From positions 1 through 34,037 of the forward strand of contig NZ_JAMQHN010000108.1 in assembly GCF_025993755.1 (NCBI RefSeq): a DNA stretch of 34,037 bases, in the 5' to 3' direction. Both the position numbers and the translations under genes were made by a program. This document shows, piece after piece, positions 12,496 through 34,037 of the stretch. Position 1 is the stretch's first letter; each line of letters opens with the position of its first letter. This DNA comes from Thermomonas sp. (GTDB taxonomy: Bacteria > Pseudomonadota > Gammaproteobacteria > Xanthomonadales > Xanthomonadaceae). Under the pieces are notes generated by a model that saw only the letters and a program-made list of their open reading frames with translations, made no database searches and was not told where the DNA came from.

Positions 12496-13248
12496 GTGAT
12501 CTGGCCGTTTTCGCGTCACCCGATTGCGCAAGCCCCGATCGATCCCGCCCGCCTTCGACAGGCGGGCGCCGGCCTGCCGTGGCTGCGTGGGCTGGACTCG
12601 GTGCGACTGGAGCGGCTGAACGCGCTTGCTGCGCGTTTCGTTTCCGAGAAAACGATCACCCCGGTGCACGATCTGCAGTTGAACGAAGTCCAGCGGCTGC
12701 GGCTGGCCCTGCTGTGCTGTTTGCCGCTGCTGGAATTCGGCGGCGATGGCCTGCGCGGCTGGAGCGAGCTGATCGTCTATCCGGGCGCTTTTCGCGTCCG
12801 CCACCAGCGGTTCGACGACCACGGCGTTGCGCACGAAGACGTGGAGGATCTCGCCGGCGAGGCCTGGGAGCGCGGTCCGGTGATCCTGTCCTGGGCCGAT
12901 GTGCGCGCCGACATTGCCGAGCCGTTCGAGGGCTACTGCGTGGCGGTGCACGAGATCGCGCACAAGCTTGATGCGCTGGACGGCGGTATGGACGGCACCC
13001 CGCCGTTGCCGCAGGCGTGGCGCAGGCAGTGGGTGTCCGATTTCCAGCGCGCCTTCGATGCGCTGTGCGCGCAGGTCGATGCCGGACGCGAAACCGCCAT
13101 CGACCCCTACGCCGGCGAATCGCCGGAAGAGTTCTTCGCGGTGTGCAGCGAATACCATTTCTCCGCGCCCGCGCTCCTGCACGCGGCGTGCCCCGCCGTG
13201 GCCGCCCACCTGGCGCGCTTCTACGGCGCGCCGCCCTTCGCGCACTGA
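12496..13248 (+). CDS. mtfA: MtfA-family zinc metallopeptidase (Mlc titration factor)
   Basis: MtfA is a cytoplasmic peptidase of family M90 that in E. coli also binds and sequesters the repressor Mlc, tuning glucose uptake. The 250-residue protein has the zinc motif HEIAHKLDALDGG (His152, Glu153, His156) and the downstream GESPEEFFAVCSEYHF segment, whose glutamate is the third zinc ligand in this family. The N-terminal half contains the conserved LLEFGGDGLRGWSELIVYPG and WADVRADIAEPFEGYCVAVH. The start is a GTG, three bases after the preceding gene. It converges on phoQ with only 3 bp between stop codons. Whether this organism has an Mlc partner is not visible here. Confidence 0.92.
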   Translation: MIWPFSRHPIAQAPIDPARLRQAGAGLPWLRGLDSVRLERLNALAARFVSEKTITPVHDLQLNEVQRLRLALLCCLPLLEFGGDGLRGWSELIVYPGAFRVRHQRFDDHGVAHEDVEDLAGEAWERGPVILSWADVRADIAEPFEGYCVAVHEIAHKLDALDGGMDGTPPLPQAWRRQWVSDFQRAFDALCAQVDAGRETAIDPYAGESPEEFFAVCSEYHFSAPALLHAACPAVAAHLARFYGAPPFAH

Positions 13249-17983: not shown

Positions 17984-20593
17984 ATGAACACCCGCTACCG
18001 CAAACGCCTGCCCAGAACCGACCTGGACTTTTTCGACGCCCGCGCGGCGGTTGAGGCAATCAAGCCCGGCGCCTGGGGCGGCCTGCCCTACACCGCACGG
18101 GTGCACGCCGAGAACATCGTGCGCAAGGCCGAGCCGGCGCGGATCGACGATTTCCTGACGCAGCTGATCGAACGCCGCCGCGACATGGACTTTCCGTGGT
18201 TCCCGGCGCGGGTGGTGTGCCATGACATCCTCGGCCAGACCGCGCTGGTGGATCTGGCGGGGCTGCGCGAGGCGATTGCCGCACAGGGCGGCGATCCGGC
18301 GCAGGTCAATCCAGTCGTGCCGGTGCAGTTGATCGTGGACCACTCGCTGGCGGTGGAAGCGCCCGGCTTCGACAAGGAGGCGTTCGCGAAAAACCGCGCC
18401 ATTGAAGACCGTCGCAACGCCGACCGCTTCGACTTCATCGAATGGACGCGGCTGGCGTTCGACAACGTGGACGTGATCCCGGCCGGCAACGGGATCATGC
18501 ATCAGATCAATCTGGAAAAAATGTCGCCGGTGGTCTACGTCCGCGATGGCGTGGCGTTCCCCGACACCTGCGTCGGCACCGATTCACACACGCCGCACGT
18601 GGACGCGCTGGGGGTGATTGCCGTCGGCGTGGGCGGGCTGGAAGCGGAAAGCGTGATGCTGGGCAATCCGTCGTGGATGCGCCTGCCCGACATCGTCGCG
18701 GTGGAACTGACCGGCAAACCGGGCGCGGGCATCACCGCCACCGACGTGGTGCTGGCGCTGACCGAATTCCTGCGCCAGCAGAAGGTAGTCGGTGCGTATC
18801 TGGAGTTCCGCGGCGAAGGTGCCGCTGCGCTGACGATTGGCGATCGCGCCACCATTTCCAACATGGCCCCGGAATACGGCGCCACCGCAGCGCTGTTTTT
18901 CATCGACGACAACACCCTCGATTACCTGCGCCTGACCGGGCGCGACGATGCGCAGGTGGCGCTGGTCGAAACCTACGCCCGACACTGCGGCTTCTGGGCC
19001 GACGATCTGCGCGACGCGCAGTACGAGCGCACCCTGCATTTCGATCTGTCCAGTGTCACGCGCACGCTGGCCGGCCCCAGCAATCCGCATCGGCGCCTGC
19101 CGGTGACGGCGCTGGCCGAACGCGGCATCGCCGACGAGGCCAAGCTCGACGCCGCGCAGCGGGACGAGGCGCGCGGCCTGATCCCCGATGGCGCCGTCAT
19201 CATCGCCGCCATCACCTCCTGCACCAACACCTCCAACCCGCGCAACGTGATCGCCGCCGCACTGCTGGCGCGCAACGCCAACGCGCGCGGGCTGACCCGC
19301 AAACCGTGGGTGAAGACCTCGCTGGCGCCCGGCTCGAAAGCGGTGCAGCTGTATCTGGAAGAAGCGAACCTGCTGCCCGAGCTCGAACAGCTGGGCTTCG
19401 GCATCGTCGGTTTCGCCTGCACCACCTGCAACGGCATGAGCGGCGCGCTGGATCCGGTGATCCAGAAGGAAGTGATCGAGCGCGACCTGTACGTGACGGC
19501 GGTGCTGTCGGGCAACCGCAATTTCGACGGCCGCATCCACCCCTACGCCAAGCAGGCGTTCCTGGCCTCGCCACCGCTGGTGATCGCCTACGCCATCGCC
19601 GGCACGGTGCGCTTCGACATCGAAAAGGACGTGCTGGGCCTCGACCACGACGGCCATCCCGTGCGGCTGAAGGACATCTGGCCCGGCGATGCCGAAATCG
19701 ACGCGGTGGTACGCGCCAGCGTCAAGCCGGAACAGTTCCGCCGCATCTACGAGCCGATGTTCGCCACGCGCGCCAAAACCAGCGCCAAGCCGCTGTACGA
19801 CTGGCGCCCGATGAGCACCTACATCCGCAACCCGCCGTACTGGGAAGGCGCGCTGGCCGGCGAGCGCACGCTGACGCACATGCGCCCGCTGGCGGTGCTG
19901 GGCGACAACATCACCACCGACCACCTGTCGCCGAGCAATGCGATCCTGCCGACCAGCGCCGCCGGCGAATATCTGGCGAAGATGGGCCTGCCGGAAGAGG
20001 ACTTCAATTCCTACGCCACTCACCGCGGCGACCACCTGACCGCGCAGCGCGCCACCTTCGCCAACCCCAAGCTCATCAACGAAATGGCGGTGGTGGACGG
20101 CGAGGTGAAGCAGGGCTCGCTGGCCCGCGTCGAACCGGAAGGCGAGGTGATGCGCATGTGGGAGGCGATCGAAACCTACATGCAGCGCAGGCAGCCGCTG
20201 TGCATCATCGCCGGCGCCGATTACGGCCAGGGCTCATCGCGCGACTGGGCGGCCAAGGGCGTGCGGCTGGCCGGCGTGGAAGCCATCGTCGCCGAAGGGT
20301 TCGAGCGCATCCATCGCCAGAATCTGGTCGGCATGGGCGTGCTGCCGCTGCAGTTCCAGCCCGGCACCACCCGCAAGACCCTGGCCATCGACGGCAGCGA
20401 AACCTTCAGCGTGCGCGGCACGCCCGCCCCCGGCGGCGCGCTGACGCTGCTGGTCGAACGCCGCAACGGCGAGCAGGTCGAAGTTCCCGTCACCTGCCGG
20501 CTGGATTCCGACGACGACGTGACGACCTACCAGGCCGGCGGCATCCTGCCGCGCTTCGCGCAGGATTTCATCGCGGCGAAAGCGGCGGCGTGA
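17984..20593 (+). CDS. acnD: Fe/S-dependent 2-methylcitrate/2-methylisocitrate dehydratase AcnD
   Basis: AcnD is the aconitase-family enzyme of the 2-methylcitrate cycle that dehydrates 2-methylcitrate during propionate breakdown; it works with PrpF. The 869-residue protein has the family start MNTRYRKRLPRTDLDFFDAR, the TDSHTPHVDALGVIAVGVGG block, and the 4Fe-4S cysteines Cys413 (SCTNTSNP), Cys479 and Cys482 (ACTTCNGMSG). The C-terminal swivel domain has GADYGQGSSRDWAAKG. Length and N-terminus fit AcnD rather than AcnA, and prpF and prpD lie about 9 kb downstream. Normally acnD and prpF are adjacent; here a restriction island separates them, and prpB/prpC are not upstream. It could have residual aconitase activity on citrate. 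Confidence 0.92.
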   Translation: MNTRYRKRLPRTDLDFFDARAAVEAIKPGAWGGLPYTARVHAENIVRKAEPARIDDFLTQLIERRRDMDFPWFPARVVCHDILGQTALVDLAGLREAIAAQGGDPAQVNPVVPVQLIVDHSLAVEAPGFDKEAFAKNRAIEDRRNADRFDFIEWTRLAFDNVDVIPAGNGIMHQINLEKMSPVVYVRDGVAFPDTCVGTDSHTPHVDALGVIAVGVGGLEAESVMLGNPSWMRLPDIVAVELTGKPGAGITATDVVLALTEFLRQQKVVGAYLEFRGEGAAALTIGDRATISNMAPEYGATAALFFIDDNTLDYLRLTGRDDAQVALVETYARHCGFWADDLRDAQYERTLHFDLSSVTRTLAGPSNPHRRLPVTALAERGIADEAKLDAAQRDEARGLIPDGAVIIAAITSCTNTSNPRNVIAAALLARNANARGLTRKPWVKTSLAPGSKAVQLYLEEANLLPELEQLGFGIVGFACTTCNGMSGALDPVIQKEVIERDLYVTAVLSGNRNFDGRIHPYAKQAFLASPPLVIAYAIAGTVRFDIEKDVLGLDHDGHPVRLKDIWPGDAEIDAVVRASVKPEQFRRIYEPMFATRAKTSAKPLYDWRPMSTYIRNPPYWEGALAGERTLTHMRPLAVLGDNITTDHLSPSNAILPTSAAGEYLAKMGLPEEDFNSYATHRGDHLTAQRATFANPKLINEMAVVDGEVKQGSLARVEPEGEVMRMWEAIETYMQRRQPLCIIAGADYGQGSSRDWAAKGVRLAGVEAIVAEGFERIHRQNLVGMGVLPLQFQPGTTRKTLAIDGSETFSVRGTPAPGGALTLLVERRNGEQVEVPVTCRLDSDDDVTTYQAGGILPRFAQDFIAAKAAA

Positions 20594-20595
20594 TG

Positions 20596-20710
20596 TTCCT
20601 TCTCCCCGCTGCGCGGGGAGGTGTTCCCGAGCGGCTGCGGCCTGCGCCGGGTCGAATTTTCCTTCTCCCCGCTGCGCGGGGAGAAGAGCCTGCCCCCGCG
20701 AAGGCGGGGG
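20596..20710. repeat. REP-like hairpin repeats downstream of acnD
   Basis: A 25-bp unit occurs at 20596-20620 and again at 20659-20683, identical over its length. Each copy folds as CTCCCCGC-TGC-GCGGGGAG; in the second copy the stem extends to 11 bp (CTTCTCCCCGC with GCGGGGAGAAG, 20662-20686). A third hairpin, CCCCCGC (20693-20699) with GCGGGGG (20704-20710), follows at once, and then a GGCCCGAAGGGCGGATGAGG tail. Such elements are scattered through Xanthomonadales chromosomes as intergenic repeats. Here they probably also terminate acnD transcription and mark the left edge of the inserted island. Confidence 0.75.
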
Positions 20711-21435: not shown

Positions 21436-24400
21436 ATGCGTATCAGGGAAAGCACCATCGAGCAGGAGTTGATCGAGAAACTCGGCGAGCTCAAGTACGT
21501 TCTGCGCCCGGACATCCACGACCGCGCGGCGCTGGAACGCAACTTCCGCGAGAAATTCGAGGCCCTGAACCGTGTCCGCCTGACGGATGCAGAGTTCCAG
21601 CGCCTTCTTGAGGAAATTGTCACCCCCGACGTGTTCAAGGCCGCGCAAGTCCTGCGCCATCGCAACGCCTTCACCCGCGACGACGGCACGCCGCTCAACT
21701 ACACGCTGGTGAACATCAACGACTGGTGCAAGAACGATTTCGAGGTCGCCAGCCAGCTGCGCATCAACACCGACTACAGCCACCACCGCTACGACGTGAT
21801 CCTGTTGATCAACGGTGTGCCCATCGTGCAGATCGAGCTGAAGACACTGGGCATCAACCCGCGCCGCGCCATCGAGCAGATCGTCGAGTACAAGAACGAT
21901 GTCGGCAACGGCTACACGCGCACCCTGTTGTGCTTCATCCAGCTGTTCATCGTCAGCAACCGCGACTCCACCTACTACTTCGCCAACAACAACGCGCGGC
22001 ATTTCAGCTTCAACGCCGACGAGCGCTTCCTGCCCATCTACCAGTACGCCGCGCCGGACAACGGCAAGATCACCGGCCTGGACGCCTTTGCCGATGCCTT
22101 CCTGCCCAAGTGCACGCTCGGGCAGATGGTCAGCCGCTACATGGTGCTGGTGGCCAGCGAGCAGAAGCTGTTGATGATGCGGCCCTACCAGATCTACGCG
22201 GTCAAGAACATCGTCGAGTGCATCGACAAGAACCTCGGCAACGGCTACATCTGGCACACCACCGGCAGCGGCAAAACGCTCACCAGCTTCAAGGCCTCGA
22301 CCCTGCTCAAGGCCAATCCCGCCATCGAGAAATGCCTGTTCGTGGTGGACCGCAAAGATCTGGATCGCCAGACCCGCGAGGAGTTCAACCGATTCCAGGA
22401 GGGCTGCGTCGAGGAGAACACCAATACCGGTGCCCTCGTGCGTCGCATGCTGTCGGATGATGCCGCCGACAAGGTCATCGTCTGCACCATCCAGAAGCTC
22501 GGCCTGGCGCTGGACGAGAACAGCAAGCGCAACAGGAGCCGCGAGAAGCACGGTCTGGTCAGCCACGCCGAACAGCTCGAAGCCCTGCGCGACAAGCGCA
22601 TCGTCTTCATCTTCGACGAATGCCACCGCTCGCAGTTCGGCGACAACCATCAGGCCATCAAGGAATTCTTCCCCAGGGCCCAGCTGTTCGGCTTCACCGG
22701 CACGCCGATCTTCGAGGAAAACGCCAGCTACAAGCGCATCGAGGGCGACGAACAGACGTTCAAGACCACCGAAGACCTGTTCCAGCAGTCGCTGCACGAA
22801 TACACCATCACCCACGCCATCGAGGACAGGAATGTCCTGCGTTTCCACGTCGAGTATTACAAGCCCGACGGAAAGAACGCCCCCAAGCACGGCGAAACGC
22901 TGGCCAAGCGCGCCGTGGTCGATGCCATTCTCGCCAAGCACGATGCCGCCACCGGCGGACGCCGCTTCAACGCCCTCCTCGCCACCGCGTCCATCAACGA
23001 TGCCATCGAGTATTTCGAGCTGTTCAAGGCCGCGCAGGCGGAAAAGCAACGGACCGAGCCGGATTGGCAACCGCTTAACATCGCTGCCGTGTTCTCGCCG
23101 CCGGCCGATGTCAGCGCCGATGTGCGCCAGCTGCAGGAAGACCTGCCGCAGGAACTGGAAGACAACAAGAAGGACCCGGACGCCAAGAAAGCCGCGCTGA
23201 AGGCCATCATCGCCGACTACAACGCGCGCTTTTCCACCAACCACCGCATCGAGGAGTTCGACGCCTACTACCAGGACGTTCAGCAGCGCATCAAGGATCA
23301 GCAGTTCCCCAACGCCGATCTGCCGATGAAAGGCCGAGAGAAGCTGGATATCACCATCGTCGTGGACATGCTGCTCACCGGCTTCGACAGCAAGTATCTC
23401 AACACCTTGTACGTGGACAAGAACCTCAGGCACCACGGCCTGATCCAGGCGTTTTCCCGTACCAACCGCGTGCTCAACGACACGAAACCCTACGGCAACA
23501 TCCTCGACTTCCGTGGCCAGCAATCGGCGGTGGATGCCGCCATCGCGCTGTTCTCCGGCGCCAAGGCCGACAAGGCGCGCGAAATCTGGTTGGTGGACAC
23601 CGCGCCGGTGGTCATCGACAAGCTGAAAGAGGCGCGAGCCAACCTCGACAGCTTCCTCGCCTCGCAGGGGCTGGGCGGCAAGCCCGAGGACATTGCCAAC
23701 CTCAAGGGCACAGCGGCCAAGGTCGCCTTCGTCAAGCACTTCAAGGACGTGCAGAAGCTGCAGACCCAGCTCGACCAGTACACCGACCTGACCGCCGAGC
23801 AGCAGGCGCAGATCGAGGCCATCCTGCCCAAGGACGAACTGCGCAGCTTCCGCGGCCAATACCTGCAAAAAGCCGAGGAACTGCGCGCCGACCAGAAGAA
23901 ACCGGGCAATCTGGACGAAGCCACCCGCAACGAGGTCGAACAGCTCGATTTCGAGTTCGTGCTGTTCGCTTCCAGCACCATCGATTACGACTACATCATG
24001 AAGCTGATCGCCGACTACTCGGGCAAGGCGCCGGGCAAGGCCAGCATGAGCCGCGATCAGTTGATCGGCCTGATCGCCTCCGACGCCAAGTTCATGGGCG
24101 AGCGCGAAGACATCAGCGAATACGTGCGCGGTCTGAAGGCGGGCGAAGGCCTGAGCGAAGACGCCATCCGCGCCGGCTACGAAAAGTTCAAGGCCGACAA
24201 GGCCGCGCAGGACATGGCCGCGCTGTCCGCAAAGCACGGCCTGCTGGTGGCGGAGGTGCAGGCCTTCGTGGACGGGATTCTTGCCCGCCGCATCTTCGAT
24301 GGTGAACAGCTCACCGAACTGCTTGCGCCGCTCAACCTTGGCTGGAAGGCGCGCGCGCAGGCCGAACTGGCGCTGATGCGCGACCTGCTGCCGCTGCTGA

Positions 24401-24459
24401 AGAAGCGGGCGGGTGGTCGGGAGATCGCCGGGCTCAAGGCCTATGAGGATGCGCAGTGA
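21436..24459 (+). CDS. hsdR: Type I restriction enzyme, R (restriction) subunit
   Basis: HsdR is the motor and nuclease subunit that translocates DNA past an unmethylated site and cuts it. The 1007-residue protein resembles EcoR124I HsdR (type IC). The N-terminal nuclease domain shows YDVILLINGVPIVQIELKT, the PD-(D/E)xK pattern with Asp120, Glu134 and Lys136. The superfamily-2 helicase part has Walker A TTGSGKT (275-281), the DEAD-like DECH box (394-397), FTGTP (420-424), and the QAFSRTNR motif VI. A helical C-terminal domain follows. All key residues are intact. It opens a run hsdR-hsdS-prrC-like-rhuM-hsdM, and its stop overlaps the hsdS start in TGATG. The ribosome-binding site is weak. Confidence 0.97.
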   Translation: MRIRESTIEQELIEKLGELKYVLRPDIHDRAALERNFREKFEALNRVRLTDAEFQRLLEEIVTPDVFKAAQVLRHRNAFTRDDGTPLNYTLVNINDWCKNDFEVASQLRINTDYSHHRYDVILLINGVPIVQIELKTLGINPRRAIEQIVEYKNDVGNGYTRTLLCFIQLFIVSNRDSTYYFANNNARHFSFNADERFLPIYQYAAPDNGKITGLDAFADAFLPKCTLGQMVSRYMVLVASEQKLLMMRPYQIYAVKNIVECIDKNLGNGYIWHTTGSGKTLTSFKASTLLKANPAIEKCLFVVDRKDLDRQTREEFNRFQEGCVEENTNTGALVRRMLSDDAADKVIVCTIQKLGLALDENSKRNRSREKHGLVSHAEQLEALRDKRIVFIFDECHRSQFGDNHQAIKEFFPRAQLFGFTGTPIFEENASYKRIEGDEQTFKTTEDLFQQSLHEYTITHAIEDRNVLRFHVEYYKPDGKNAPKHGETLAKRAVVDAILAKHDAATGGRRFNALLATASINDAIEYFELFKAAQAEKQRTEPDWQPLNIAAVFSPPADVSADVRQLQEDLPQELEDNKKDPDAKKAALKAIIADYNARFSTNHRIEEFDAYYQDVQQRIKDQQFPNADLPMKGREKLDITIVVDMLLTGFDSKYLNTLYVDKNLRHHGLIQAFSRTNRVLNDTKPYGNILDFRGQQSAVDAAIALFSGAKADKAREIWLVDTAPVVIDKLKEARANLDSFLASQGLGGKPEDIANLKGTAAKVAFVKHFKDVQKLQTQLDQYTDLTAEQQAQIEAILPKDELRSFRGQYLQKAEELRADQKKPGNLDEATRNEVEQLDFEFVLFASSTIDYDYIMKLIADYSGKAPGKASMSRDQLIGLIASDAKFMGEREDISEYVRGLKAGEGLSEDAIRAGYEKFKADKAAQDMAALSAKHGLLVAEVQAFVDGILARRIFDGEQLTELLAPLNLGWKARAQAELALMRDLLPLLKKRAGGREIAGLKAYEDAQ

Positions 24460-25730
24460 TGGCGAGGAAGGGCGATAAGGCGACTGTGCCGAAGGTGCGG
24501 TTCCCGGAGTTTGTGGGTGCTCAGAATTGGAGCGTCACGCCGATGGGGAGCTTGTATGCCTTCATGCGGAACAACTTGCTCTCTCGAGACAAGCTGAACT
24601 ACGAGCGCGGAGTAGCCAAGAACATTCATTACGGCGACATCCACACCAAGTTTCAGGCGCTATTCGACATCACCAGAGAGCGCGTCCCGTTCATCAATGA
24701 AAGCGAGTTAGTACCCGGTGCAGATTCTGATGATTACTGCGTTGAAGGAGATCTGATTTTTGCGGATGCCTCCGAAGATATGCGCGATGTTGGCAAGTGC
24801 ATCGAGGTCGTTCGATTGGCTGGTGAGCGCTTACTGTCGGGACAGCACACGATCTTGGCGCGTCGGAAAGATGACGCCTTAGTCATCGGGTTTGGCGGGC
24901 ATTTGTTTCGATCCGGCCTGATTCGTTCGGGGATCGAGAAAGAGGCGCAAGGAACGAAGGTCTACCAAATTTCTTCATCGCGTCTTGGTGGCATCGACAT
25001 CACGTACCCGAGCGACAAGGGCGAGCAACAAAAAATCGCCGATTGCCTGACCTCGCTGGAGGAGGTGATCGCCGCGCAGGGCCGGAAAGTGGACGCGTTG
25101 AAGGCCCACAAACGCGGCCTGATGCAGCAACTCTTCCCCCGCGAAGGCGAAACCCGCCCCCGCCTCCGCTTCCCCGAGTTCCGCGATGCGCCGGAGTGGG
25201 AAGTTAGCGAGCTTGTGAATGTCTGTGAAGTGCTAAATAACCGGCGTGTTCCAATTGCTGGTGGAGAAAGGCGAGCCGGACCTTATCCATACTACGGTGC
25301 AAGTGGAGTAGTTGATTACGTTGATAACTTTATCTTCGACGAACGTCTTCTCTTGGTTGGAGAAGATGGCGCAAAGTGGGGGGCATTTGAGGCAACTGCC
25401 TTCATCGTAGATGGAAAGTATTGGGTGAACAACCATGCACACGTTTTGAGGCCAACAATCGTTATCGATACTCTTCTGGAAAATTATCTAACCATGATTG
25501 ATCTGGCTGGATATGTTTCGGGGCATGCGCCGCCGAAATTGACACTGGCCAAACTGAAGAGCATTCCCATTTTGTTTCCTGCATCTAAGTTGGAACAACA
25601 ACGTATCGCCGACTGCCTCTCCTCCCTCGACACCCAAATCGCCGCCGAGGCCAACCAGCTCGCCGCCCTCAAGATCCACAAGCAGGGCCTGATGCAGCAG
25701 TTGTTTCCGACGCAGGGGCCTAGTCAATGA
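24459..25730 (+). CDS. hsdS: Type I restriction-modification specificity subunit
   Basis: HsdS recognises the bipartite DNA target and holds two HsdM subunits. The 423-residue protein has two target-recognition domains (about residues 20-185 and 245-375), each followed by a near-identical conserved spacer: residues 189-227 begin EQQKIADCLTSLEE and residues 379-417 begin EQQRIADCLSSLDT, both ending in GLMQQLFP. The spacers act as a coiled-coil ruler between the two half-sites. A short motif (VRFPEF / LRFPEF) precedes each recognition domain. The second recognition domain in particular is visibly AT-richer than the spacers, suggesting that it was acquired by recombination. An ATG at 24459 is used; a GTG at 24456 is possible. 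Confidence 0.95.
   Translation: MARKGDKATVPKVRFPEFVGAQNWSVTPMGSLYAFMRNNLLSRDKLNYERGVAKNIHYGDIHTKFQALFDITRERVPFINESELVPGADSDDYCVEGDLIFADASEDMRDVGKCIEVVRLAGERLLSGQHTILARRKDDALVIGFGGHLFRSGLIRSGIEKEAQGTKVYQISSSRLGGIDITYPSDKGEQQKIADCLTSLEEVIAAQGRKVDALKAHKRGLMQQLFPREGETRPRLRFPEFRDAPEWEVSELVNVCEVLNNRRVPIAGGERRAGPYPYYGASGVVDYVDNFIFDERLLLVGEDGAKWGAFEATAFIVDGKYWVNNHAHVLRPTIVIDTLLENYLTMIDLAGYVSGHAPPKLTLAKLKSIPILFPASKLEQQRIADCLSSLDTQIAAEANQLAALKIHKQGLMQQLFPTQGPSQ
25023..25139 (+). repeat. HsdS conserved spacer repeat, copy 1
   Basis: This stretch encodes the first conserved spacer of HsdS (residues 189-227). It matches copy 2 closely at protein level. The two GC-rich spacers flank the AT-richer recognition domains and are natural points for domain exchange by homologous recombination. 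Confidence 0.7.
25593..25709 (+). repeat. HsdS conserved spacer repeat, copy 2
   Basis: This stretch encodes the second conserved spacer of HsdS (residues 379-417), 190 residues after the first. Both end in the same Gly-Leu-Met-Gln-Gln-Leu-Phe-Pro sequence. Confidence 0.7.
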
Positions 25731-26809
25731 CGCTCGACGAGATTGCCGCTGCTCTGAAGAATGATGATGCGCGCATCATCATTGCGTACGCCTTCAACGC
25801 CACTGGCAAGACGCAACTGTGCGTGTCATACAAGAATGCAACGAAGAACGATGACGGAAGCCATACTGGCGTTTATTACAACGCCTATAGCGAGGATCTT
25901 TTTGTATGGAACAACGATGAGGAAAATGCTGGCGAGAGCATCCGGCTCAACGTATTGCCAAGTAGCTTGAGCAGATTTCACACGCTGCTAACAGAAGACA
26001 ACATCCGCGACAAGCTTAAGCCCTACAAGCCTAAGTACGGATTTGCGCTGAATTTCAATGAATCCGATCCGGAGAAGGGTATCGAGTCGATTTCTTTCTT
26101 TGTTCCGAACCAGAATCCTGACGAAGACCAGAAGTCGATCAAAATCTCACGCGGCGAAGAGCGGATTTTCGTCTGGTGTTTCTTCCTTGCATTGTTCGAA
26201 GTTGAAGGATGGGCGGACAGACAATCCAGTCACTTCTTTATCGATGATCCGGTATCCAGCCTGGACGATCACAATATCTTCGTCACGGCAGCGACACTGT
26301 TCGATCTTATCGAGAGCCAGTACGACAAGCGCAAGATTATTGTCACAACGCATCACATGGGCTTGTTCTCCGTCCTGAGTGACTGGCTCACAAAAGGCGA
26401 GAAGAAGGATAAGTTCAAGAAAGCCACGAAGCTGTACATCCTTAGCTCGAAATCGGGCTCTCTCGAACTAGAAAGCTGCCGACAGGATGTGTTTCTGTAC
26501 CATCTCCGCATCCTGCAGCAGTTGGCTATTGCGCGCCAGGCGAAGGATGTTCGCGCATATCACTTTGTGCTGCTTCGGCAGGTGCTGGAAAACGTGGCGT
26601 CGTTCCTTGGTGTCGGCCAGTTCAGCTACGTGCTCAGTCAGATAGGCATTGACGACCCCAGTCGCTCGGCCGATATAGTTAATGCCTTATCCCACAAGAA
26701 GATCTATTACTACGAATCGGACATGGTTGTTCCGGATAACTTGGAAATCTTTAACGAAGTGATGGATGGGCTCCTTGGCAAGTTCAACTTCGTACTGCAT
26801 GCGGAGTGA
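25727..26809 (+). CDS. PrrC-like anticodon nuclease (ABC-ATPase plus ribonuclease domain)
   Basis: PrrC is a latent tRNA-Lys anticodon nuclease that is held silent by a type IC restriction enzyme and released when a phage disables that enzyme. This 360-residue protein (PrrC is about 396) has the PrrC-type N-terminus with a Walker A of unusual form, YAFNATGKT (20-29 region, Ala in place of the first Gly), then VYYNAYSEDLFVWNNDEEN. The ABC signature is ISRGEE (140-145), Walker B is FFIDDP (170-175), the D-loop is SSLD and the switch His is in TTHH (207-210). In the C-terminal part, Arg284, Glu288 and His323 match the order and near-spacing of the PrrC catalytic triad (Arg320, Glu324, His356). 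It overlaps hsdS by four bases (ATGA), as expected for a linked guard. The gene is visibly AT-richer than its neighbours. The tRNA target is not known. Confidence 0.82.
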   Translation: MTLDEIAAALKNDDARIIIAYAFNATGKTQLCVSYKNATKNDDGSHTGVYYNAYSEDLFVWNNDEENAGESIRLNVLPSSLSRFHTLLTEDNIRDKLKPYKPKYGFALNFNESDPEKGIESISFFVPNQNPDEDQKSIKISRGEERIFVWCFFLALFEVEGWADRQSSHFFIDDPVSSLDDHNIFVTAATLFDLIESQYDKRKIIVTTHHMGLFSVLSDWLTKGEKKDKFKKATKLYILSSKSGSLELESCRQDVFLYHLRILQQLAIARQAKDVRAYHFVLLRQVLENVASFLGVGQFSYVLSQIGIDDPSRSADIVNALSHKKIYYYESDMVVPDNLEIFNEVMDGLLGKFNFVLHAE

Positions 26810-26812
26810 TGC

Positions 26813-27823
26813 ATGAGCAACCTGATCCTCTACACCACCGAGGACGGCCACAGCCGCATCCAGCTGCGCGTCGATAGCCAGACGGTCTGGCTGACGCAGG
26901 CGGAGATGGCGGAGCTGTTCGACGTCTCCACCGACAACATCAGCCTGCATCTGAAAAACATCTTTTCAGACAAGGAGTTGGAACCTGAACGAACTACCGA
27001 GGAATCCTCGGTGGTTCAACGGGAGGGCGGGCGCGAGGTGCGCCGACCGGTCACGCTCTACAACCTCGACGCCATCTTGGCCGTGGGCTACCGGGTGCGT
27101 TCCCCGCGCGGCGTTCAGTTCCGCCGCTGGGCCACCACCGCGCTCGGAGAATACCTGCTCAAGGGCTTCGTCATGGACGACGAGCGCCTGAAGAACCCGG
27201 ATGGCCGTCCGGACCACTTCGACGAGATGCTGGCGCGCATCCGCGACATCCGCGCCTCAGAGAAACGCTTCTACCAGAAGGTGCGCGACCTGTTCGCCCT
27301 GAGCGTGGACTACGACAAGACCGACCGCGCCACGCAGGCCTTCTTCGCCACCGTGCAGAACCTGCTGCTCTATGCGGTGACCAGGCAGACCGCCGCCGAG
27401 CTCATCATGGCGCGCGCCAACCCGGACGACCCGCATTTCGGCCTGCGTGCATGGAGCGGCGGACGGGTACGCAAGCAGGACATCCTGATCGCCAAGAACT
27501 ACCTGAGCATCGATGAGATCGACACCCTCAACCGTCTGGTGACGATCTTCCTGGAGACCGCGGAATTGCGGACCAAGAACCGCCAGGAGATTCCCATGCG
27601 CTTCTGGATGGAGAATGTGGGCCAGATCATCAGTTCCAACGGCTTTCCTTTGCTGGCCAATGCCGGCTCCGTCAGCCACGCGCAGATGGAGGCGGAAACG
27701 AACACGCGCTACCTCGCCTTCGACGAACAGCGCAAACAGCAGGAAGCGCGGGCCGCCGATGCCGCCGACGAGGCCGAACTGGCCGCCATCGAAAACAAGA
27801 TCAAACGACGCTTGAAACCATGA
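26813..27823 (+). CDS. rhuM: RhuM-family protein
   Basis: The 336-residue protein belongs to the RhuM family, named for a Salmonella pathogenicity-island gene and often found inside type I restriction loci. Visible features are an N-terminal DNA-binding-like part, QTVWLTQAEMAELFDVSTDN and SLHLKNIFSDKELEP, and REGGREVRRPVTLYNLDAIL, then a GYRVRSPRGVQFRRWATTAL block. The middle region contains KRFYQKVRDLFALSVDYDKT, and the C-terminus is a charged helix rich in Ala/Glu. The biochemical function is unknown; the N-terminal part resembles a phage antirepressor-type helix-turn-helix. It lies 3 bp after the PrrC-like gene and its stop overlaps the hsdM start (ATGA). It returns to the high GC of the chromosome. 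Confidence 0.88.
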   Translation: MSNLILYTTEDGHSRIQLRVDSQTVWLTQAEMAELFDVSTDNISLHLKNIFSDKELEPERTTEESSVVQREGGREVRRPVTLYNLDAILAVGYRVRSPRGVQFRRWATTALGEYLLKGFVMDDERLKNPDGRPDHFDEMLARIRDIRASEKRFYQKVRDLFALSVDYDKTDRATQAFFATVQNLLLYAVTRQTAAELIMARANPDDPHFGLRAWSGGRVRKQDILIAKNYLSIDEIDTLNRLVTIFLETAELRTKNRQEIPMRFWMENVGQIISSNGFPLLANAGSVSHAQMEAETNTRYLAFDEQRKQQEARAADAADEAELAAIENKIKRRLKP

Positions 27824-29439
27824 CCGAAGACGACCAGAAACAACTCGGCAAGACCCTGTGGGCCATCGCCGATCAGCTGCGCGGCAGCATGAACGCGGAC
27901 GACTTCCGCGATTACATGCTGTCGTTCCTGTTCCTGCGCTACCTGTCGGACAACTACGAGGCGGCGGCGAGGAAGGAGCTGGGATCGGACTATCCCGACC
28001 CGGCAGCCATCGGCAACGGCGGCAAGACGCCGCTGTCGATGTGGTATGCCGCCAATCCGGACGACGTGGAGCAATTCGAGCGCCAGATGCGCCGCAAGGT
28101 GCACTACGTCATCAAGCCCGAATTTTTGTGGGGCAACATCGTCCATCTGGCGAAAACCCAGAGCGACACGCTGCTCAATACGCTGCAGAAGGGCTTCAAG
28201 TACATCGAGGAGGAGTCGTTCGAGAGCAAGTTCCAGGGCTTGTTCTCGGAAATCAACCTTGCCTCGGACAAGCTGGGGCGCAATTACGAGAGCCGCAACG
28301 CCAAGCTGTGCGCGGTCATCAGCGAAATCGCGCGTGGCATGGCGCTGTTTTCCACCGGCAGCGATACCCTGGGCGATGCCTATGAATACCTGATCGGCCA
28401 GTTCGCCGCCGGTTCCGGCAAGAAGGCCGGCGAGTTCTACACGCCACAGCAGATTTCCAACATCCTGTCCGCCATCGTGACGCTGGATAGCCAGGAACCG
28501 AAAACCGGCCCACGCGGGTCGCTTTCCAGCGTGCTCGATTTTGCCTGCGGGTCCGGCTCGTTGCTGCTCAACATCCGCCACCGCATGAAGGACGCCGGCG
28601 GCAATATCGGCAAGATCGTCGGGCAGGAGTACAACGTCACCACCTACAACCTGGCGCGCATGAACATGCTGTTGCACGGGGTGAAGGACACCGAGTTCGA
28701 GATTTTCCACGGCGACACGCTGAAGAACGACTGGGACTGGCTGCGCGAAACCAACCCGGCGAGAAAGCCGCGATTCGATGCGGTGGTCGCCAACCCGCCT
28801 TTCAGCTATCGCTGGGAGCCGGGCGAGGCGATGGCGCAGGACCCGCGCTTCAAGAACCACGGCGTGGCGCCGAAGAGCGCGGCCGATTTCGCCTTCCTGC
28901 TCCACGGCCTGCATTACCTGAAAGATGACGGCGTGATGGCCATCATCCTGCCGCACGGCGTGTTGTTTCGCGGAGGCAAGGAAGCGGACATCCGCCGCAA
29001 GCTGCTCGACGACGGGCATATCGACACGGTGATCGGCCTTCCAGCCAACCTGTTCTACTCCACCGGCATTCCGGTGTGCATTCTGGTGTTGAAGAAATGC
29101 AAGAAGCCGGACGACGTGCTGTTCATCAACGCCGCCGAGCACTTCACCAAGGGCAAGCGCCAGAACCAGCTGAGCGATGCGCACATCGAGCGCATCGTCT
29201 CAACGTATCGCAACCGCACGGAGCAGGAACGCTATTCCCGCCGTGTGCCGATGCGGGAGATCATCGAAAACGATTACAACCTGAACATCTCCCGCTATGT
29301 CAGCACGGCGGAGGCGGAGCAGGAAATCGACCTCGCGGCGGTGCATGCAGACTTGACGGCGATTGAAACGGAGATCGCCAAGGCAAAGAAACGGCACAAC
29401 GCTTTCCTTGAAGAACTGGGATTGAAGCCGCTGCCTTGA
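27820..29439 (+). CDS. hsdM: Type I restriction-modification N6-adenine methyltransferase subunit
   Basis: HsdM methylates adenine in the target recognised by HsdS and protects host DNA. The 539-residue product has the HsdM_N helical domain (MTEDDQKQLGKTLWAIADQL onward), the hinge GEFYTPQQISNILSAI (about 204-219), the S-adenosylmethionine motif I DFACGSGSLLLNI (240-252) and the catalytic motif IV NPPF (325-328). It also carries VGQEYNVTTYNLARMNMLLHG and a C-terminal coiled coil for HsdS contact. All catalytic residues are intact, so modification should be active. In this locus hsdM is last, after rhuM, whereas common orders place M next to S. Its start overlaps rhuM by 4 bases. Confidence 0.97.
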   Translation: MTEDDQKQLGKTLWAIADQLRGSMNADDFRDYMLSFLFLRYLSDNYEAAARKELGSDYPDPAAIGNGGKTPLSMWYAANPDDVEQFERQMRRKVHYVIKPEFLWGNIVHLAKTQSDTLLNTLQKGFKYIEEESFESKFQGLFSEINLASDKLGRNYESRNAKLCAVISEIARGMALFSTGSDTLGDAYEYLIGQFAAGSGKKAGEFYTPQQISNILSAIVTLDSQEPKTGPRGSLSSVLDFACGSGSLLLNIRHRMKDAGGNIGKIVGQEYNVTTYNLARMNMLLHGVKDTEFEIFHGDTLKNDWDWLRETNPARKPRFDAVVANPPFSYRWEPGEAMAQDPRFKNHGVAPKSAADFAFLLHGLHYLKDDGVMAIILPHGVLFRGGKEADIRRKLLDDGHIDTVIGLPANLFYSTGIPVCILVLKKCKKPDDVLFINAAEHFTKGKRQNQLSDAHIERIVSTYRNRTEQERYSRRVPMREIIENDYNLNISRYVSTAEAEQEIDLAAVHADLTAIETEIAKAKKRHNAFLEELGLKPLP

Positions 29440-29547: not shown

Positions 29548-30729
29548 ATGGCCCACGCCCCCCAACGCCGCATCCCCGCCACCTACATGCGCGGCGGCAC
29601 GTCGAAAGGCGTGTTCTTCCGGCTGGAAGACCTGCCCGAGGCCGCGCGCGTGCCCGGCCCGGCGCGCGATGCGCTGTTGATGCGGGTGATCGGTTCGCCC
29701 GATCCCTACGGCAAGCACACCGACGGCATGGGCGGTGCCACTTCCAGCACGTCCAAGTGCGTCATCATCGCGCCCGCGTCCGTGCCCGACCACGACGTGG
29801 ACTATCTGTACGGGCAGGTCAGCATCGACACCGGCTTCGTGGATTGGTCGGGCAACTGCGGCAACCTGTCTACGGCGGTGGGGTCGTTCGCGGTCGCCAA
29901 CGGCTTCATTCCGGCGGAGCGCATTCCGCACAACGGCAGCGTGACGGTGCGGGTGTGGCAGGCCAATATCGGCAAGACCATCCTGGTGCATGTGCCGATT
30001 GCCGATGGACAGGTGCAGGAAACCGGCGATTTCGAGCTGGATGGCGTCACGTTCCCGGCGGCGGAGATCGTGCTGGAGTTCCTCGATCCGTCGGACGACG
30101 ACGATGCGGGTGGCTCGATGTTTCCGACCGGCAATTTGATCGACGATCTCGACGTGCCCGGCGTCGGCACGCTGAAAGCGACGATGATTACCGCCGGCAT
30201 TCCGACCGTGTTCGTGAACGCCGCCGACCTCGGCTACGACGGCACGGAATTGCAGCCGGCGATCAACGAGGACAGGGCCGCGCTGGCCAGGCTCGAAGCC
30301 ATCCGCGTGGCCGGCGCGCTGCGCATGGGCCTGATCCGCACGCCGGAAGAAGCCGCCACCCGCCAGCACACGCCGAAGGTGGCGTACGTCGCGCCGCCGA
30401 AGGATTACGCCGCGTCCAGCGGCAAGCGCATCGCCGCAGGCGACATCGACATCAACGTGCGCGCGATGTCGATGGGCAAGCTGCACCACGCGATGATGGG
30501 CACCGCCTCGGTTGCCATCGCCACCGCGGCGGCGGTGCCGGGCACACTGGTGAATCTCGCGGCGGGCGGCGGAACGCGCGATGCCGTGCGCTTCGGCCAT
30601 CCGTCCGGCACGCTGCGCGTGGGCGCATCGGTCGAGCAGCGCGACGGGCAATGGACGGTGACGCGCGCGGTGATGTCGCGCTCCGCGCGCGTGCTGATGG
30701 AAGGCCGGGTGCGCGTGCCGCAGGACTGA
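29548..30729 (+). CDS. prpF: 2-methylaconitate cis-trans isomerase
   Basis: PrpF is the AcnD accessory protein of the 2-methylcitrate cycle; it isomerises 2-methyl-trans-aconitate to the cis form. The 393-residue protein has the DAP-epimerase-like fold pattern of the PrpF/DUF453 family: PATYMRGGTSKGVFF near the N-terminus, SPDPYGKHTDGMGGATSSTS, and the FVDWSGNCGNLSTAVGSFA block with the family's conserved Cys. The second half has MITAGIPTVFVNAADLGYDG, MSMGKLHHAMMGTASVAIAT and FGHPSGTLRVGASVE. The ATG at 29548 matches the family start; an in-frame ATG at 29482 would add an unlikely leader. It is normally adjacent to acnD, but here about 9 kb of restriction island lies between them. Confidence 0.94.
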   Translation: MAHAPQRRIPATYMRGGTSKGVFFRLEDLPEAARVPGPARDALLMRVIGSPDPYGKHTDGMGGATSSTSKCVIIAPASVPDHDVDYLYGQVSIDTGFVDWSGNCGNLSTAVGSFAVANGFIPAERIPHNGSVTVRVWQANIGKTILVHVPIADGQVQETGDFELDGVTFPAAEIVLEFLDPSDDDDAGGSMFPTGNLIDDLDVPGVGTLKATMITAGIPTVFVNAADLGYDGTELQPAINEDRAALARLEAIRVAGALRMGLIRTPEEAATRQHTPKVAYVAPPKDYAASSGKRIAAGDIDINVRAMSMGKLHHAMMGTASVAIATAAAVPGTLVNLAAGGGTRDAVRFGHPSGTLRVGASVEQRDGQWTVTRAVMSRSARVLMEGRVRVPQD

Positions 30730-30864
30730 GTCTGCGCGCGCTTCCCTGGCGGCGGTTGATCCACGTCAACGAAACCCGATACGGCGGCCGGCTTCACGCG
30801 CATTTCCGAAGCCCGGCGTAGCGTGGCTTGCGAAAATGCAATCCGGTTTTGCAAGAGCGCCCGC

Positions 30865-32301
30865 ATGTCTTCTTTCAACGACAATGTCCGTCCCGACTGG
30901 GACGAGGTGATCGTCCGCATCGTCGATTACGTCCGCGACTTCGAGCCGCAGACCGACCTCGCCTGGCGCACCGCGCGCCACATGCTGATCGACTCGCTCG
31001 GTTGCGCGCTGGAAGCGCTGGAATATCCGGCCTGCACCAAGCTGCTCGGGCCGCTGGTGGAAGGCGCCAGCCTGCCCGGCGGCGCGCGCGTGCCGGGCAC
31101 GTCCTACGAGCTCGATCCGGTCAAGGCCGCGTTCGACATCGGCGCGACGATCCGCTGGCTGGACTACAACGACACCTGGCTGGCCGCCGAGTGGGGGCAT
31201 CCGTCTGACAACCTCGGCGCGATCCTCGCGGTGGCCGATTGGCTGGCGCGCAAGGGCCACCCGCTGACGATGCGCCAGGTGCTCGAATGCGCGATCAAGG
31301 CGCACGAAATCCAGGGCGTGATCGCGCTGAAGAATTCGTTCAACCAGGTCGGACTGGACCATGTGGCGCTGGTCAAGCTGGCCTCGACTGCGGTGGCCGG
31401 AAAGCTGCTCGGCCTGACCCGCGAGCAGTCGCTGGCGGCGCTGTCGCAGGTATTCGTCGACGGCCAGTCGCTGCGCACCTATCGCCACGCGCCCAACACC
31501 GGCTCGCGCAAGAGCTGGGCGGCGGGCGACGCCTGCTCGCGCGCGGTGCGGCTGGCGCTGATGGCGCAGACCGGCGAGATGGGCTATCCGGGCGCGCTGA
31601 CTGCGCCGGCGTGGGGTTTCTACGACGTGTCTTTCCAGGGCCGCCCGTTCCGCTTCGAGCGCGACTTCGGCAGCTACGTGATCGAGAACGTGCTGTTCAA
31701 GATCAGCTACCCGGCCGAGTTCCATTCGCAAAGCGCGGTCGAGGCGGCGATGACCCTGCACCAGCGGTTCCAGGAGCTGGGCCGCAGCGTTGAAGACGTC
31801 GAGAAGATCGTGATCCGCACCCACGCCGCCTGCGTGCGCATCATCGACAAGCAGGGCCCGCTGGACAATCCGGCCGACCGCGACCACTGCATCCAGTACA
31901 TGGTCGCGGTGCCGCTGATCTTCGGCCGCCTGACCGCCGCCGACTACGAGGACGGTGTTGCTGCCGATCCGCGCATCGACGCGCTGCGCGCGAAGATCCG
32001 CTGCGTCGAAGACCCCGACTTCACCGCCGACTACCACGACCCGGACAAGCGCTCGATCGCCAACGGCCTGAACGTCACCTTCAAGGACGGCACCAAGCTT
32101 GATGAAGTGCTGGTCGAATACCCGATCGGCCACCGCCGCCGCCGCGCCGAAGGCATCCCGCTGCTGGAGGCCAAGTTCCGCCGCAACCTCGCCCGCCGCT
32201 TCGACGAGGCGCGCCAGCAGCGGATCCTCGACGTGGCGCTGGATCAGGCCAGGCTGGAAGCGATGCCGGTGCAGGACTTCATGGCGCTGTTCGTGGCCTG
32301 A
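30865..32301 (+). CDS. prpD: 2-methylcitrate dehydratase
   Basis: PrpD (MmgE/PrpD fold) dehydrates 2-methylcitrate to 2-methyl-cis-aconitate without an iron-sulfur cluster. The 478-residue product is close to the E. coli length of 483. It shows RTARHMLIDSLGCALEALEY, ATIRWLDYNDTWLAAEWGHPSDNLGAIL in two adjacent parts, KAHEIQGVIALKNSFNQVGL, SWAAGDACSRAVRLALMAQT and FKISYPAEFHSQSAVEAA. Having both AcnD-PrpF and PrpD gives two parallel routes for the same step. It starts 135 bp after prpF. The last 75 bases including the stop, plus at least 6 more, are repeated after the next gene, which implies an insertion at this 3' end; the copy within prpD itself is intact. Confidence 0.95.
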   Translation: MSSFNDNVRPDWDEVIVRIVDYVRDFEPQTDLAWRTARHMLIDSLGCALEALEYPACTKLLGPLVEGASLPGGARVPGTSYELDPVKAAFDIGATIRWLDYNDTWLAAEWGHPSDNLGAILAVADWLARKGHPLTMRQVLECAIKAHEIQGVIALKNSFNQVGLDHVALVKLASTAVAGKLLGLTREQSLAALSQVFVDGQSLRTYRHAPNTGSRKSWAAGDACSRAVRLALMAQTGEMGYPGALTAPAWGFYDVSFQGRPFRFERDFGSYVIENVLFKISYPAEFHSQSAVEAAMTLHQRFQELGRSVEDVEKIVIRTHAACVRIIDKQGPLDNPADRDHCIQYMVAVPLIFGRLTAADYEDGVAADPRIDALRAKIRCVEDPDFTADYHDPDKRSIANGLNVTFKDGTKLDEVLVEYPIGHRRRRAEGIPLLEAKFRRNLARRFDEARQQRILDVALDQARLEAMPVQDFMALFVA

Positions 32302-32306
32302 GGGCG
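32226..32306 (+). repeat. Direct repeat of prpD 3' end, proximal copy
   Basis: This is the functional 3' end of prpD (the last 25 codons, the stop and the following AGGGCG part). It matches 33957-34037 at 80 of 81 positions; the one difference (G at 32235, C at 33966) is synonymous for Val. Together the copies bracket the ATPase gene. Confidence 0.9.
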
Positions 32307-32320
32307 GGTGATGGGCCCGC

Positions 32321-32343
32321 GGCGCCCGCGACCGGCGGGCGCC
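32321..32343 (+). terminator. Hairpin after prpD
   Basis: Bases 32321-32329 (GGCGCCCGC) and 32335-32343 (GCGGGCGCC) form a perfect 9-bp stem around a 5-base loop, 19 bases after the prpD stop. No T run follows, so terminator function is plausible but not certain. Confidence 0.45.
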
Positions 32344-32618
32344 AGTCCGGCCTCCGGATCGATCTCCTTCCCCAACGCAGCGACAGTCAACCGCGCCGGG
32401 GCTGGATCGAGCGCACGCACGACGCCATTCCCGAACGCGCCGGGACGTTGAGATGACAGCAGGGACGGGGCCTGTGGACACCGCTCCGTTCCCGATCCGA
32501 AGTCCGCATCCCCCCGCCTTTCCGGGGGCAACGCGCTGACGCCGTCTGTTCGAATTCCCCCCGCTGCGGGTTTTGATTCTTTCGTTTAGCGGAAGTTTTT
32601 CTTTCATTCTGCAACCCC

Positions 32619-32656
32619 TGATTCTTGCAATCAGCGGGCACTGATTCTTACAATCA
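32619..32656 (+). promoter_or_regulatory. Two tandem 15-bp dyads before the ATPase gene
   Basis: TGATTCTTGCAATCA (32619-32633) and TGATTCTTACAATCA (32642-32656) differ at one base and lie 23 bp apart from start to start. Each is itself an inverted repeat in its outer five bases (TGATT/AATCA). The half TGATTCTT occurs a third time at 32574. The second copy ends 4 bases before the ATG at 32661, so a bound protein would block both promoter clearance and translation. This looks like an operator array, perhaps for autoregulation. Confidence 0.6.
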
Positions 32657-32660
32657 GCCG

Positions 32661-33908
32661 ATGCCGGAAACTGCCCTTTACCCCCGCCAGGCCGCGCCGC
32701 TGCTGCGCGAAGCGCTGACCGATTCGCCGGTGGTGCTGGTGCATGGGCCGCGCCAATGCGGCAAGTCCACGCTGGCAAGGATGGTGGGCGAGCCGCTGGG
32801 CCATGCCTATCTGAGCTTCGATGATGAAACGACGCGCGCCGCTGCCGAGGCCGACCCGGTGGGTTTCGTGGATCGCCTGCCGCAGCGTGTGATTCTGGAT
32901 GAGGTGCAGCGGGTGCCGACGCTGTTCGACACGCTCAAGCACGCGGTGGATCACAGACGCACACCGGGTCGTTTCCTGCTGACGGGTTCGGCCAATGTCC
33001 TGCTGCTGCCCCGCCTGGCCGATTCCATGGCCGGGCGCATGTCGGTGCTGCGCCTGCATCCCTTGGCGCAGTGTGAGCTGGCCGGGCGAACGGGGACGTT
33101 CCTGGATCGGCTGTTCGCCGCCGACTTCAAGGCCCGGCGCAGCCAGCGGCTGGGTGGACGACTGGTCGACGCCGTCGTCGCAGGTGGCTATCCCGCCGCG
33201 CTGGCACGGACCAGCGCACGGCGACGCGTGGCCTGGTACCGCGACTACATCGAAGCGCTGGTGCAGCGCGATGTACGCGACATCAGCCATATCCATTCGT
33301 TGGAGGCCCTGCCGCGTCTGCTGAAGGCGGCGGCGGCGCAAACCGCGCAGCTGTTCAACGCCAGCGACCTCGCGGCCCCCTTTCAGCTCAGCCGCCCCAC
33401 AATCGCCGATTACGTGACCCTGCTGGAACGGGTCTTCCTGCTGGAACGCCTGCCGCCTTGGTACAGCAACCGCATCAGCCGCCTGGTCAAGACGCCCAAG
33501 CTGCATCTGGGCGATACCGGCCTGGCCTGCGCGCTGCTGGGCGTGGATGCAGCCGCTCTGGCCGATGACCGGGCGCTGTTCGGCCACCTGCTGGAAACCT
33601 TCGTGTTCCAGGAACTGCGCCGACAGGAAAGCGGCGGCGACACGGGCATGGCGTTCTTCCACTATCGCGACCGCGAGGGGGTGGAAGTGGATGTCGTGAT
33701 CGAGCGCGGCGCACGTGCTCTGGCCGGCGTGGAGGTCAAGGCGGCGGCCAGCGTCACCGAGCGCGATTTTCGAGGTTTGGCCAAGCTGCGCGATGCGACC
33801 GGCAAACGCTTCATGGCGGGTGTGGTGCTGTACGACGGCGAGGCCGCGCTGGGATTCGGCGATCGCCTGTTCGCCGTACCCATCCGGGCACTGTGGCAGA
33901 CGGCGTGA
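32661..33908 (+). CDS. AAA_14/DUF4143 ATPase
   Basis: The 415-residue protein is of the COG1373 type. It has an N-terminal AAA+ domain with Walker A HGPRQCGKS (28-36), Walker B RVILDEVQ (76-82, Asp80/Glu81) and sensor-like FLLTGSANVLLLPRLADSMA. The C-terminal DUF4143 part has YRDYIEALVQRDVRDIS, a winged-helix-like LSRPTIADYVTLLERVFLLE, and then a PD-(D/E)xK-like pattern: VEVDVVIERG (Asp344) and AGVEVKAAAS (Glu358, Lys360). Function is unknown in this widespread, patchily distributed family. The ATG at 32661 lies right after the dyads; an upstream in-frame ATG at 32625 would lie inside them. The gene is alone between two copies of the prpD 3' end, which suggests that it moved here as a unit. 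Confidence 0.85.
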   Translation: MPETALYPRQAAPLLREALTDSPVVLVHGPRQCGKSTLARMVGEPLGHAYLSFDDETTRAAAEADPVGFVDRLPQRVILDEVQRVPTLFDTLKHAVDHRRTPGRFLLTGSANVLLLPRLADSMAGRMSVLRLHPLAQCELAGRTGTFLDRLFAADFKARRSQRLGGRLVDAVVAGGYPAALARTSARRRVAWYRDYIEALVQRDVRDISHIHSLEALPRLLKAAAAQTAQLFNASDLAAPFQLSRPTIADYVTLLERVFLLERLPPWYSNRISRLVKTPKLHLGDTGLACALLGVDAAALADDRALFGHLLETFVFQELRRQESGGDTGMAFFHYRDREGVEVDVVIERGARALAGVEVKAAASVTERDFRGLAKLRDATGKRFMAGVVLYDGEAALGFGDRLFAVPIRALWQTA

Positions 33909-33933
33909 TGCCGTCGATGCCGGAGAACGGGAC

Positions 33934-34032
33934 ATGAGGCCCCTCCGATTGAAAACCCTCGACGTCGCGCTGGATCAGGCCAGGCTGGAAGCGATGCCGG
34001 TGCAGGACTTCATGGCGCTGTTCGTGGCCTGA
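33934..34032 (+). pseudogene. Duplicated prpD 3' fragment forming a 32-codon frame
   Basis: An ATG at 33934, 8 bases after a GGAG (33922-33925), opens a frame of MRPLRLKT followed by the last 24 residues of PrpD in the correct frame, ending at the same stop. It is a partial copy of prpD without its active site. The frame could be translated by chance or could be a side effect of how the insertion rebuilt the gene end. It is not an independent gene on present evidence. Confidence 0.6.
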
Positions 34033-34037
34033 GGGCG
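33957..34037 (+). repeat. Direct repeat of prpD 3' end, distal copy
   Basis: This copy matches 32226-32306 at 80 of 81 positions and runs to the window edge, so its true right end is unknown. The distance from repeat to repeat is 1731 bp. The left border is sharp: matching begins at CCTCGACGT and the bases before it are unrelated to prpD. Confidence 0.9.

Follow-up and report, generated by a model that had tools for sequence, protein, structure and literature searches.

Direct copies of one gene end on either side of an insert have been described after conjugation in Escherichia coli, where, among 60 Lac− clones, 56 had a lacZ end in duplicate (109–950 bp in the 14 that were sequenced). These duplications were put down to a recircularised molecule that had integrated by a single crossover; 4 of the 60 clones resembled homology-facilitated illegitimate recombination (PMC3240628, cited, like the papers named below, for excerpts of its text). 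Homology-facilitated illegitimate recombination has also been held responsible for the displaced 3′ ends at type VI secretion system (T6SS) and Rhs loci (PMC5361080). In E. coli, Staphylococcus aureus and Streptococcus pyogenes, 10–18% of variable segments are repeat-flanked (PMC2884548); because the repeats counted there start at 5 bp and 66–94% of them are shorter than 30 bp, those rates are not directly comparable with the survey presented here. We analysed a stretch of Thermomonas sp. DNA (the window: 34037 bp, the entire contig C98 of the 207-contig draft assembly G000) in which a gene for an AAA_14/DUF4143 ATPase lies between an intact prpD and a second copy of the prpD 3′ end. On balance, and with modest confidence, we take the ATPase gene with its own putative operator and promoter to be a horizontally acquired one-gene unit that was brought in by recombination anchored in the prpD end. 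The parts of the locus are as follows.

30865..32301, forward strand: prpD, 2-methylcitrate dehydratase, intact (NF006943 and TIGR02330 far above cut-off).
32226..32306, forward strand: repeat copy 1 (the last 24 whole codons of prpD with the stop codon, then 5 bases).
32307..32568, no strand assigned: spacer between the prpD end and the array, with GC-rich hairpins directly 3′ of prpD that are no stronger than those of shuffles.
32569..32660, forward strand: four 23-bp array units that abut the ATG of the ATPase gene; the third and fourth (32618–32637 and 32641–32660) are the strong ones.
32625..32654, forward strand: sigma-70-like promoter TTGCAA-18-TACAAT within the last two array units.
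32661..33908, forward strand: AAA_14/DUF4143 ATPase, 415 aa, with an AAA core, a winged-helix-like region and a PD-(D/E)xK-like domain (E312, D344, E358, K360).
33957..34037, forward strand: repeat copy 2, a prpD end cut by the contig end.

The two repeat copies are identical at 80 of 81 bases and spaced 1731 bases apart. Their sole mismatch, G at 32235 and C at 33966, sets GTG against GTC, Val in both, and the next 71 bases are identical. A first-pass annotation of the window had reported the repeat with its single synonymous difference, as we find it, and had rightly placed the end, stop and downstream bases of prpD in it; its count of 25 codons and 6 bases is corrected here to 24 and 5. The repeat is far beyond chance because the next longest direct repeat within 30000–34037 is only 32 bp at 75% identity. 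Among the readable contigs of the genome (some short contigs read N), a 28-mer of the repeat matched only these two places at up to 3 mismatches, and a 148-base probe found both copies and one weak 42-base match elsewhere. Copy 2 stops exactly at the contig end, so its right border is unseen. At the mismatch position, one congener (G016) has C and the six others compared have G.

The neighbourhood of prpD in congeners supports an insertion at this gene end. In two of them (L023 in G019 and L024 in G016) a convergent SDR gene, 3′ end first, lies directly after prpD, in accord with the annotation's proposal of an insertion there, and in a third (L025 in G021) the SDR gene is also downstream of prpD, about 0.5 kb further on. 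In the window's own genome, the SDR gene sits at the very end of contig C31, which holds residues 1–281 of 290; in L023, 126 bases separate the prpD stop from the point matching this SDR break. The 1650 or more bases between the repeat copies thus sit in an old, narrow gap. Of the clean empty prpD end anticipated in relatives, G019 and G016 show the gene adjacency, with intergenic DNA too diverged for base-exact borders and with the right border beyond the contig. Between the prpD end and the array, the spacer (searched with part of the array in 198 family genomes) gave only short matches beyond its own genome, in 14 genomes, all GC-rich with query spans of 28–59 bases and E of 4.8e-5 or weaker. 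The gene prpF follows prpD in five other congeners (L026 and L028–L031), with the SDR gene after prpF in L026 and L031. Gene order around prpD varies among congeners: acnD–prpD, sometimes with prpF after prpD, or prpF before prpD. When 28 ends of 14 contigs of the genome, C31 and C98 among them, were compared, a single match, of 28 bp, was seen outside stretches that read N; contigs C13 and C14 have 28 bp in common at their ends, oppositely oriented.

Copies of neighbouring gene ends recur around other members of the ATPase family, as the annotation had suggested they might, and recur at a similar rate around RhuM, an unrelated accessory family with one gene also in the window. Flanking direct repeats were sought with blastn on the same strand within 1.5 kb on each side, at E up to 1e-6. 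The ATPase sample had 118 rows, of which 113 were testable once the window and four short-flank rows were excluded (L088 and L129 are one locus). The comparison samples were 141 ordinary open reading frames (ORFs), all with 250 codons or more and from loci exceeding 6 kb, and 29 RhuM loci taken from the places listed, 28 of them testable and one at a contig edge; many genomes in the ATPase and RhuM samples alike are drafts. Repeats flanked 15 of the 113 ATPase genes, 5 of the 28 RhuM genes and 5 of the 141 ordinary ORFs (Fisher p = 0.55 for ATPase versus RhuM, 0.005 for ATPase versus ordinary ORFs and 0.012 for RhuM versus ordinary ORFs). The gene-end footprint is therefore not special to the ATPase, because RhuM shows it at a similar rate and with the same anatomy, although this comparison is weakened by the small RhuM sample and RhuM itself may be mobile. 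The annotation's candidate role for the ATPase as a mobility factor finds no support here, with RhuM equalling or exceeding the ATPase rate.

The anatomy of these loci varies, as does the length of the flanking repeats around the ATPase relatives, which ranges widely; about half of the 15 ATPase loci show clean gene-end anatomy. L062 reads leuS, a 5′ fragment of lptE, the ATPase and a longer lptE; in L087 and L124 a 5′ fragment of hsdR precedes the ATPase and hsdR follows it (open at the end of the stretch in L124); and in L140 (a DUF6933 gene) and L229 (a small ORF) a 5′ fragment likewise stands before the ATPase and the longer gene after it. These five share the one-sided anatomy of the window, in which a gene-end copy lies on one side and the intact gene on the other. 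L125 has a more complex arrangement of an hsdR-like gene, L078 has an ApbA gene upstream of the ATPase and part of it downstream running into the contig end, and L056 has an ETF-alpha end with an AbiEi-like piece (AbiEi by eye). In L079 and L167 the flanking repeats are present in several copies within the stretch, and in L094 and L063 they are of unclear kind. The 15 are completed by L227 and L083, described below, and by L217, which repeats its own array. Around RhuM, the gene follows an hsdR end in L274 and hsdS in L275, with the copied hsdR or hsdS 3′ end after it, and in L276 it stands with the 5′ fragment of a small gene that by eye resembles an antitoxin gene and for which Pfam gave no family; L281 has a gene-end copy further away and L283 is complex. 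A further check confirmed LptE, leucyl-tRNA synthetase, ApbA, DUF6933, SDR, HsdR and HsdS.

Three loci carry observations of their own. In L227, what looks like the 3′ end of a single gene, by eye a monooxygenase-like one, is present three times, once upstream of the ATPase and twice, at 86–189 and 792–925 bases, downstream; the place may be an insertion hot spot. The 154-bp repeat of L094 (7665–7818 and 9429–9582) starts tRNA-Leu-like by eye; ARAGORN reports no tRNA in the L094 repeats and an intact tRNA-Leu at 13104–13188. Among viral contigs, L289 has a 76-bp flanking repeat and was excluded from all counts.

At one locus, L062, the two copies of the gene end could be polarised against congeners. 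The lptE fragment and the longer copy are identical at 121 of 139 positions (87.1%), and are no closer to each other than to five congeners, with which their identities are 83.5–90.6% and 83.1–88.3%, respectively. Across the 18 differing sites, the congener majority is matched by the fragment at 9 and by the longer copy at 6, with 3 undecided. Judged by these sites, the L062 copies look like diverged alleles of two lineages rather than sisters of which one, the fragment, is decaying, contrary to the regenerated target sequence envisaged in the annotation. None of the five congeners has the ATPase at lptE; leuS is directly upstream in two (L233 and L236), and none was seen in the stretches of the other three.

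We infer the following recombination route in this genome. Incoming DNA that consisted of a prpD end and the ATPase gene would have undergone a crossover with the resident prpD, either because a small circularised molecule integrated by one crossover or because one end joined by homology and the other illegitimately. The outcome would be an intact prpD followed, beyond the ATPase gene, by a displaced prpD end. The duplicated prpD end would then be a by-product, and ATPase activity would not be required.

Several points weigh against this reading. Over the 60 alignment columns that precede the start of lptE, four of the five congeners are nearer to the longer copy and one is equally near to both copies. 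The fragment matches intact LptE at 67% protein identity and has a stop, whereas congeners match at 82–86%; decay would also give the fragment's poor protein match. Elsewhere, ratios of synonymous to other codon differences between copies are mixed (20:10, 8:7, 3:4, 6:4 and 6:4), and polarisation was achieved at L062 only. In the window, donor and resident are indistinguishable because the copies differ at one base, and 80 of 81 identical bases agree equally well with duplication in tandem or with a long target duplication.

The ATPase belongs to the AAA_14/DUF4143 ATPases, also labelled COG1373. Its Pfam scores are 92.7 bits for PF13173 (cut-off 27) and 159.7 for PF13635 (cut-off 28.1), placing it within both families. 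Across 36 ATPase sequences, G29 P30 R31 Q32, G34 K35, T37 L38 and D80 E81 are invariant; these are the Walker A and B residues. The predicted structure (predicted local distance difference test (pLDDT) 88.8, predicted TM-score (pTM) 0.90) comprises an AAA core, a helix-turn-helix region that includes short strands and, at the C terminus, a helix–strand–strand–strand–helix–strand fold (H304–324, E330–337, E342–349, E353–359, H367–383 and E384–391). E312, D344 and K360 are invariant in the same 36 sequences and E358 is present in at least 90% of them. Reading fold and motif by eye in the model, we take the helix-turn-helix region to be a probable winged helix and the C-terminal domain to be PD-(D/E)xK-like, the latter in agreement with the first-pass annotation. 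The best solved chain by sequence has E 0.21. By structure, the best Foldseek matches of the model are the archaeal AAA+ ATPases SSO1545 (2FNA, E 3.0e-8) and PABY2304 (2QEN, E 1.4e-6), which differ from it considerably: identity is 17% and 13%, query TM-score 0.44 and 0.42, and root-mean-square deviation 7.9 and 9.6, respectively. Five other ORFs of at least 80 aa in the unit have no Pfam family; because Pfam scans of these and of the ATPase gave none, no integrase or transposase was found in the unit, as had been noted before. ATPase relatives occur in 394 plasmid records, all below 60% identity, and in 9 phage records at identities up to 32%; in viral contigs, a protein search gave 0 relatives and an alignment search 3 loci. 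Among the papers searched, DUF4143 is named in one alone, in a single table row (PMC4406477).

What is new here is a 22/23-bp repeat array at the start of genes of this ATPase family. In the 110 bases upstream of the ATPases, mean self-match is 0.399 at lag 23 and 0.322 at lag 22, whereas the remaining lags between 20 and 26 give 0.230–0.264. In shuffling tests the upstream periodicity reaches p < 0.01 in 73 of 117 ATPase rows (window included); the corresponding counts are 3 of 197 for ordinary ORFs and 3 of 29 for RhuM loci. Downstream of the ATPase, 22/23-bp periodicity was found in 1 of 96 regions. Among the examined contigs of the genome, the strong array unit occurs, at up to 3 mismatches, only at its two places here. 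The similarity of array units grows with ATPase identity (r = 0.60 over 103 rows, against 0.13–0.16 further upstream), a correlation that shared descent alone could also yield. In L079, array-like units are found in both flanking repeats (491–670 and 2333–2506). Literature searches of a limited set of papers, none aimed at the array itself, met no description of it.

The array overlaps a candidate promoter. Because TACAAT ends 6 bases before the ATG, transcription would start at or beside the ATG and give a transcript without a leader, as far as sequence can tell. A TTGCAA-18-TACAAT-type layout is present in 20 of 115 ATPase rows and in 27 of 2300 shuffles, an enrichment that is descriptive since the layout was chosen after viewing the sequences, and that concerns a minority of the rows. 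Most simply, the array would serve the ATPase gene as its operator. Its position, its periodicity and its co-diversification with the ATPase make it probable that the protein binds there through the winged helix and so represses the promoter from which it is expressed.

Several other accounts of the repeat have to be weighed with these observations. A close rival, which we rate as unlikely, is a tandem duplication, or a loop in the assembly graph, of the 1731-bp unit formed by the prpD end and the ATPase; copy 2 would begin another full unit, and the assembler would have halted on reaching sequence no longer distinguishable from the first. That the contig stops 71 identical bases past the mismatch resembles what might be expected of an assembler halting at the first shared k-mer, and L217 does show, after the ATPase, a repeat of the sequence that precedes it, of part of the array and of the gene's first bases. 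Even so, an insertion would still be needed for the prpD–SDR break, and the examined stretches of L062, L087, L124, L140 and L229 hold no second ATPase. The best self-match before the gene fragments in these five loci is 0.33–0.40, which in L124 and L229 is not below that of the array itself. An integrative element of the classical kind, with a recombinase, might instead have entered at the prpD end and subsequently shed everything except a single cargo gene. Integrative elements are known to carry a replacement gene end, and the upstream repeat of L083 contains what by eye looks like a transposase-type ORF; no recombinase family is found among the ORFs of the unit, however, and we regard this history as highly improbable.

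The ATPase unit could also be a one-gene mobile element in its own right, whose winged helix would bind the array, whose PD-(D/E)xK domain would cut, and whose integration at gene ends would leave long target duplications of variable length. Conservation of the nuclease-like residues, an array that could serve as a cis site, the recurrence of flanking duplications and the array-like units in both L079 repeats are in keeping with such an element. RhuM has flanking duplications too, however, repeat length varies widely, the lptE copies are not sister-like, and the array is one-sided; we consider this element improbable. Target duplications made by the ATPase were entertained as the source of the repeats and dropped, given the RhuM control and the lptE comparison. 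More speculative still, and a shade less credible than the element just described, is a broader proposal for the family: that each AAA_14/DUF4143 ATPase gene forms a selfish unit by itself, whose winged-helix/PD-(D/E)xK ATPase would recognise its own 22/23-bp array, repress the leaderless promoter, nick there and promote capture of the unit and its recombination into gene ends, thereby enriching gene-end duplications.

In our reading the repeat was left by one-sided recombination, or by duplication in tandem, and not by an element that the ATPase drives; the recombination-made duplication that the annotation had held in reserve fits better than its ATPase-driven element. Gene-end copies beside a lone accessory gene are no proof of a new mobile element, as a matched control gives an equal signal, and mobility of the ATPase does not follow from the observation of the repeat. 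The array is the part worth following up: through it, a large and almost unstudied ATPase family gains a concrete handle, namely the repeated cis units that lie at the family's own promoter. Elsewhere in the window, a type I restriction-modification operon (21436–29439; hsdR, hsdS, an AAA_13-like gene, RhuM and hsdM) lies between acnD and prpF. A 28-bp palindrome-like sequence is present in two copies (20593–20683) directly after acnD and before this operon.

Compared with the described systems, the locus is similar to the lacZ-end case in that an insert lies between direct copies of one gene end (PMC3240628). That case was a laboratory construct, whereas here donor and event are unobserved and the repeat is at least 81 bp. 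The T6SS and Rhs loci are similar in that an incoming module leaves a displaced gene end further downstream (PMC5361080). There, a different end replaces the gene end; here, by contrast, both copies encode the same residues.

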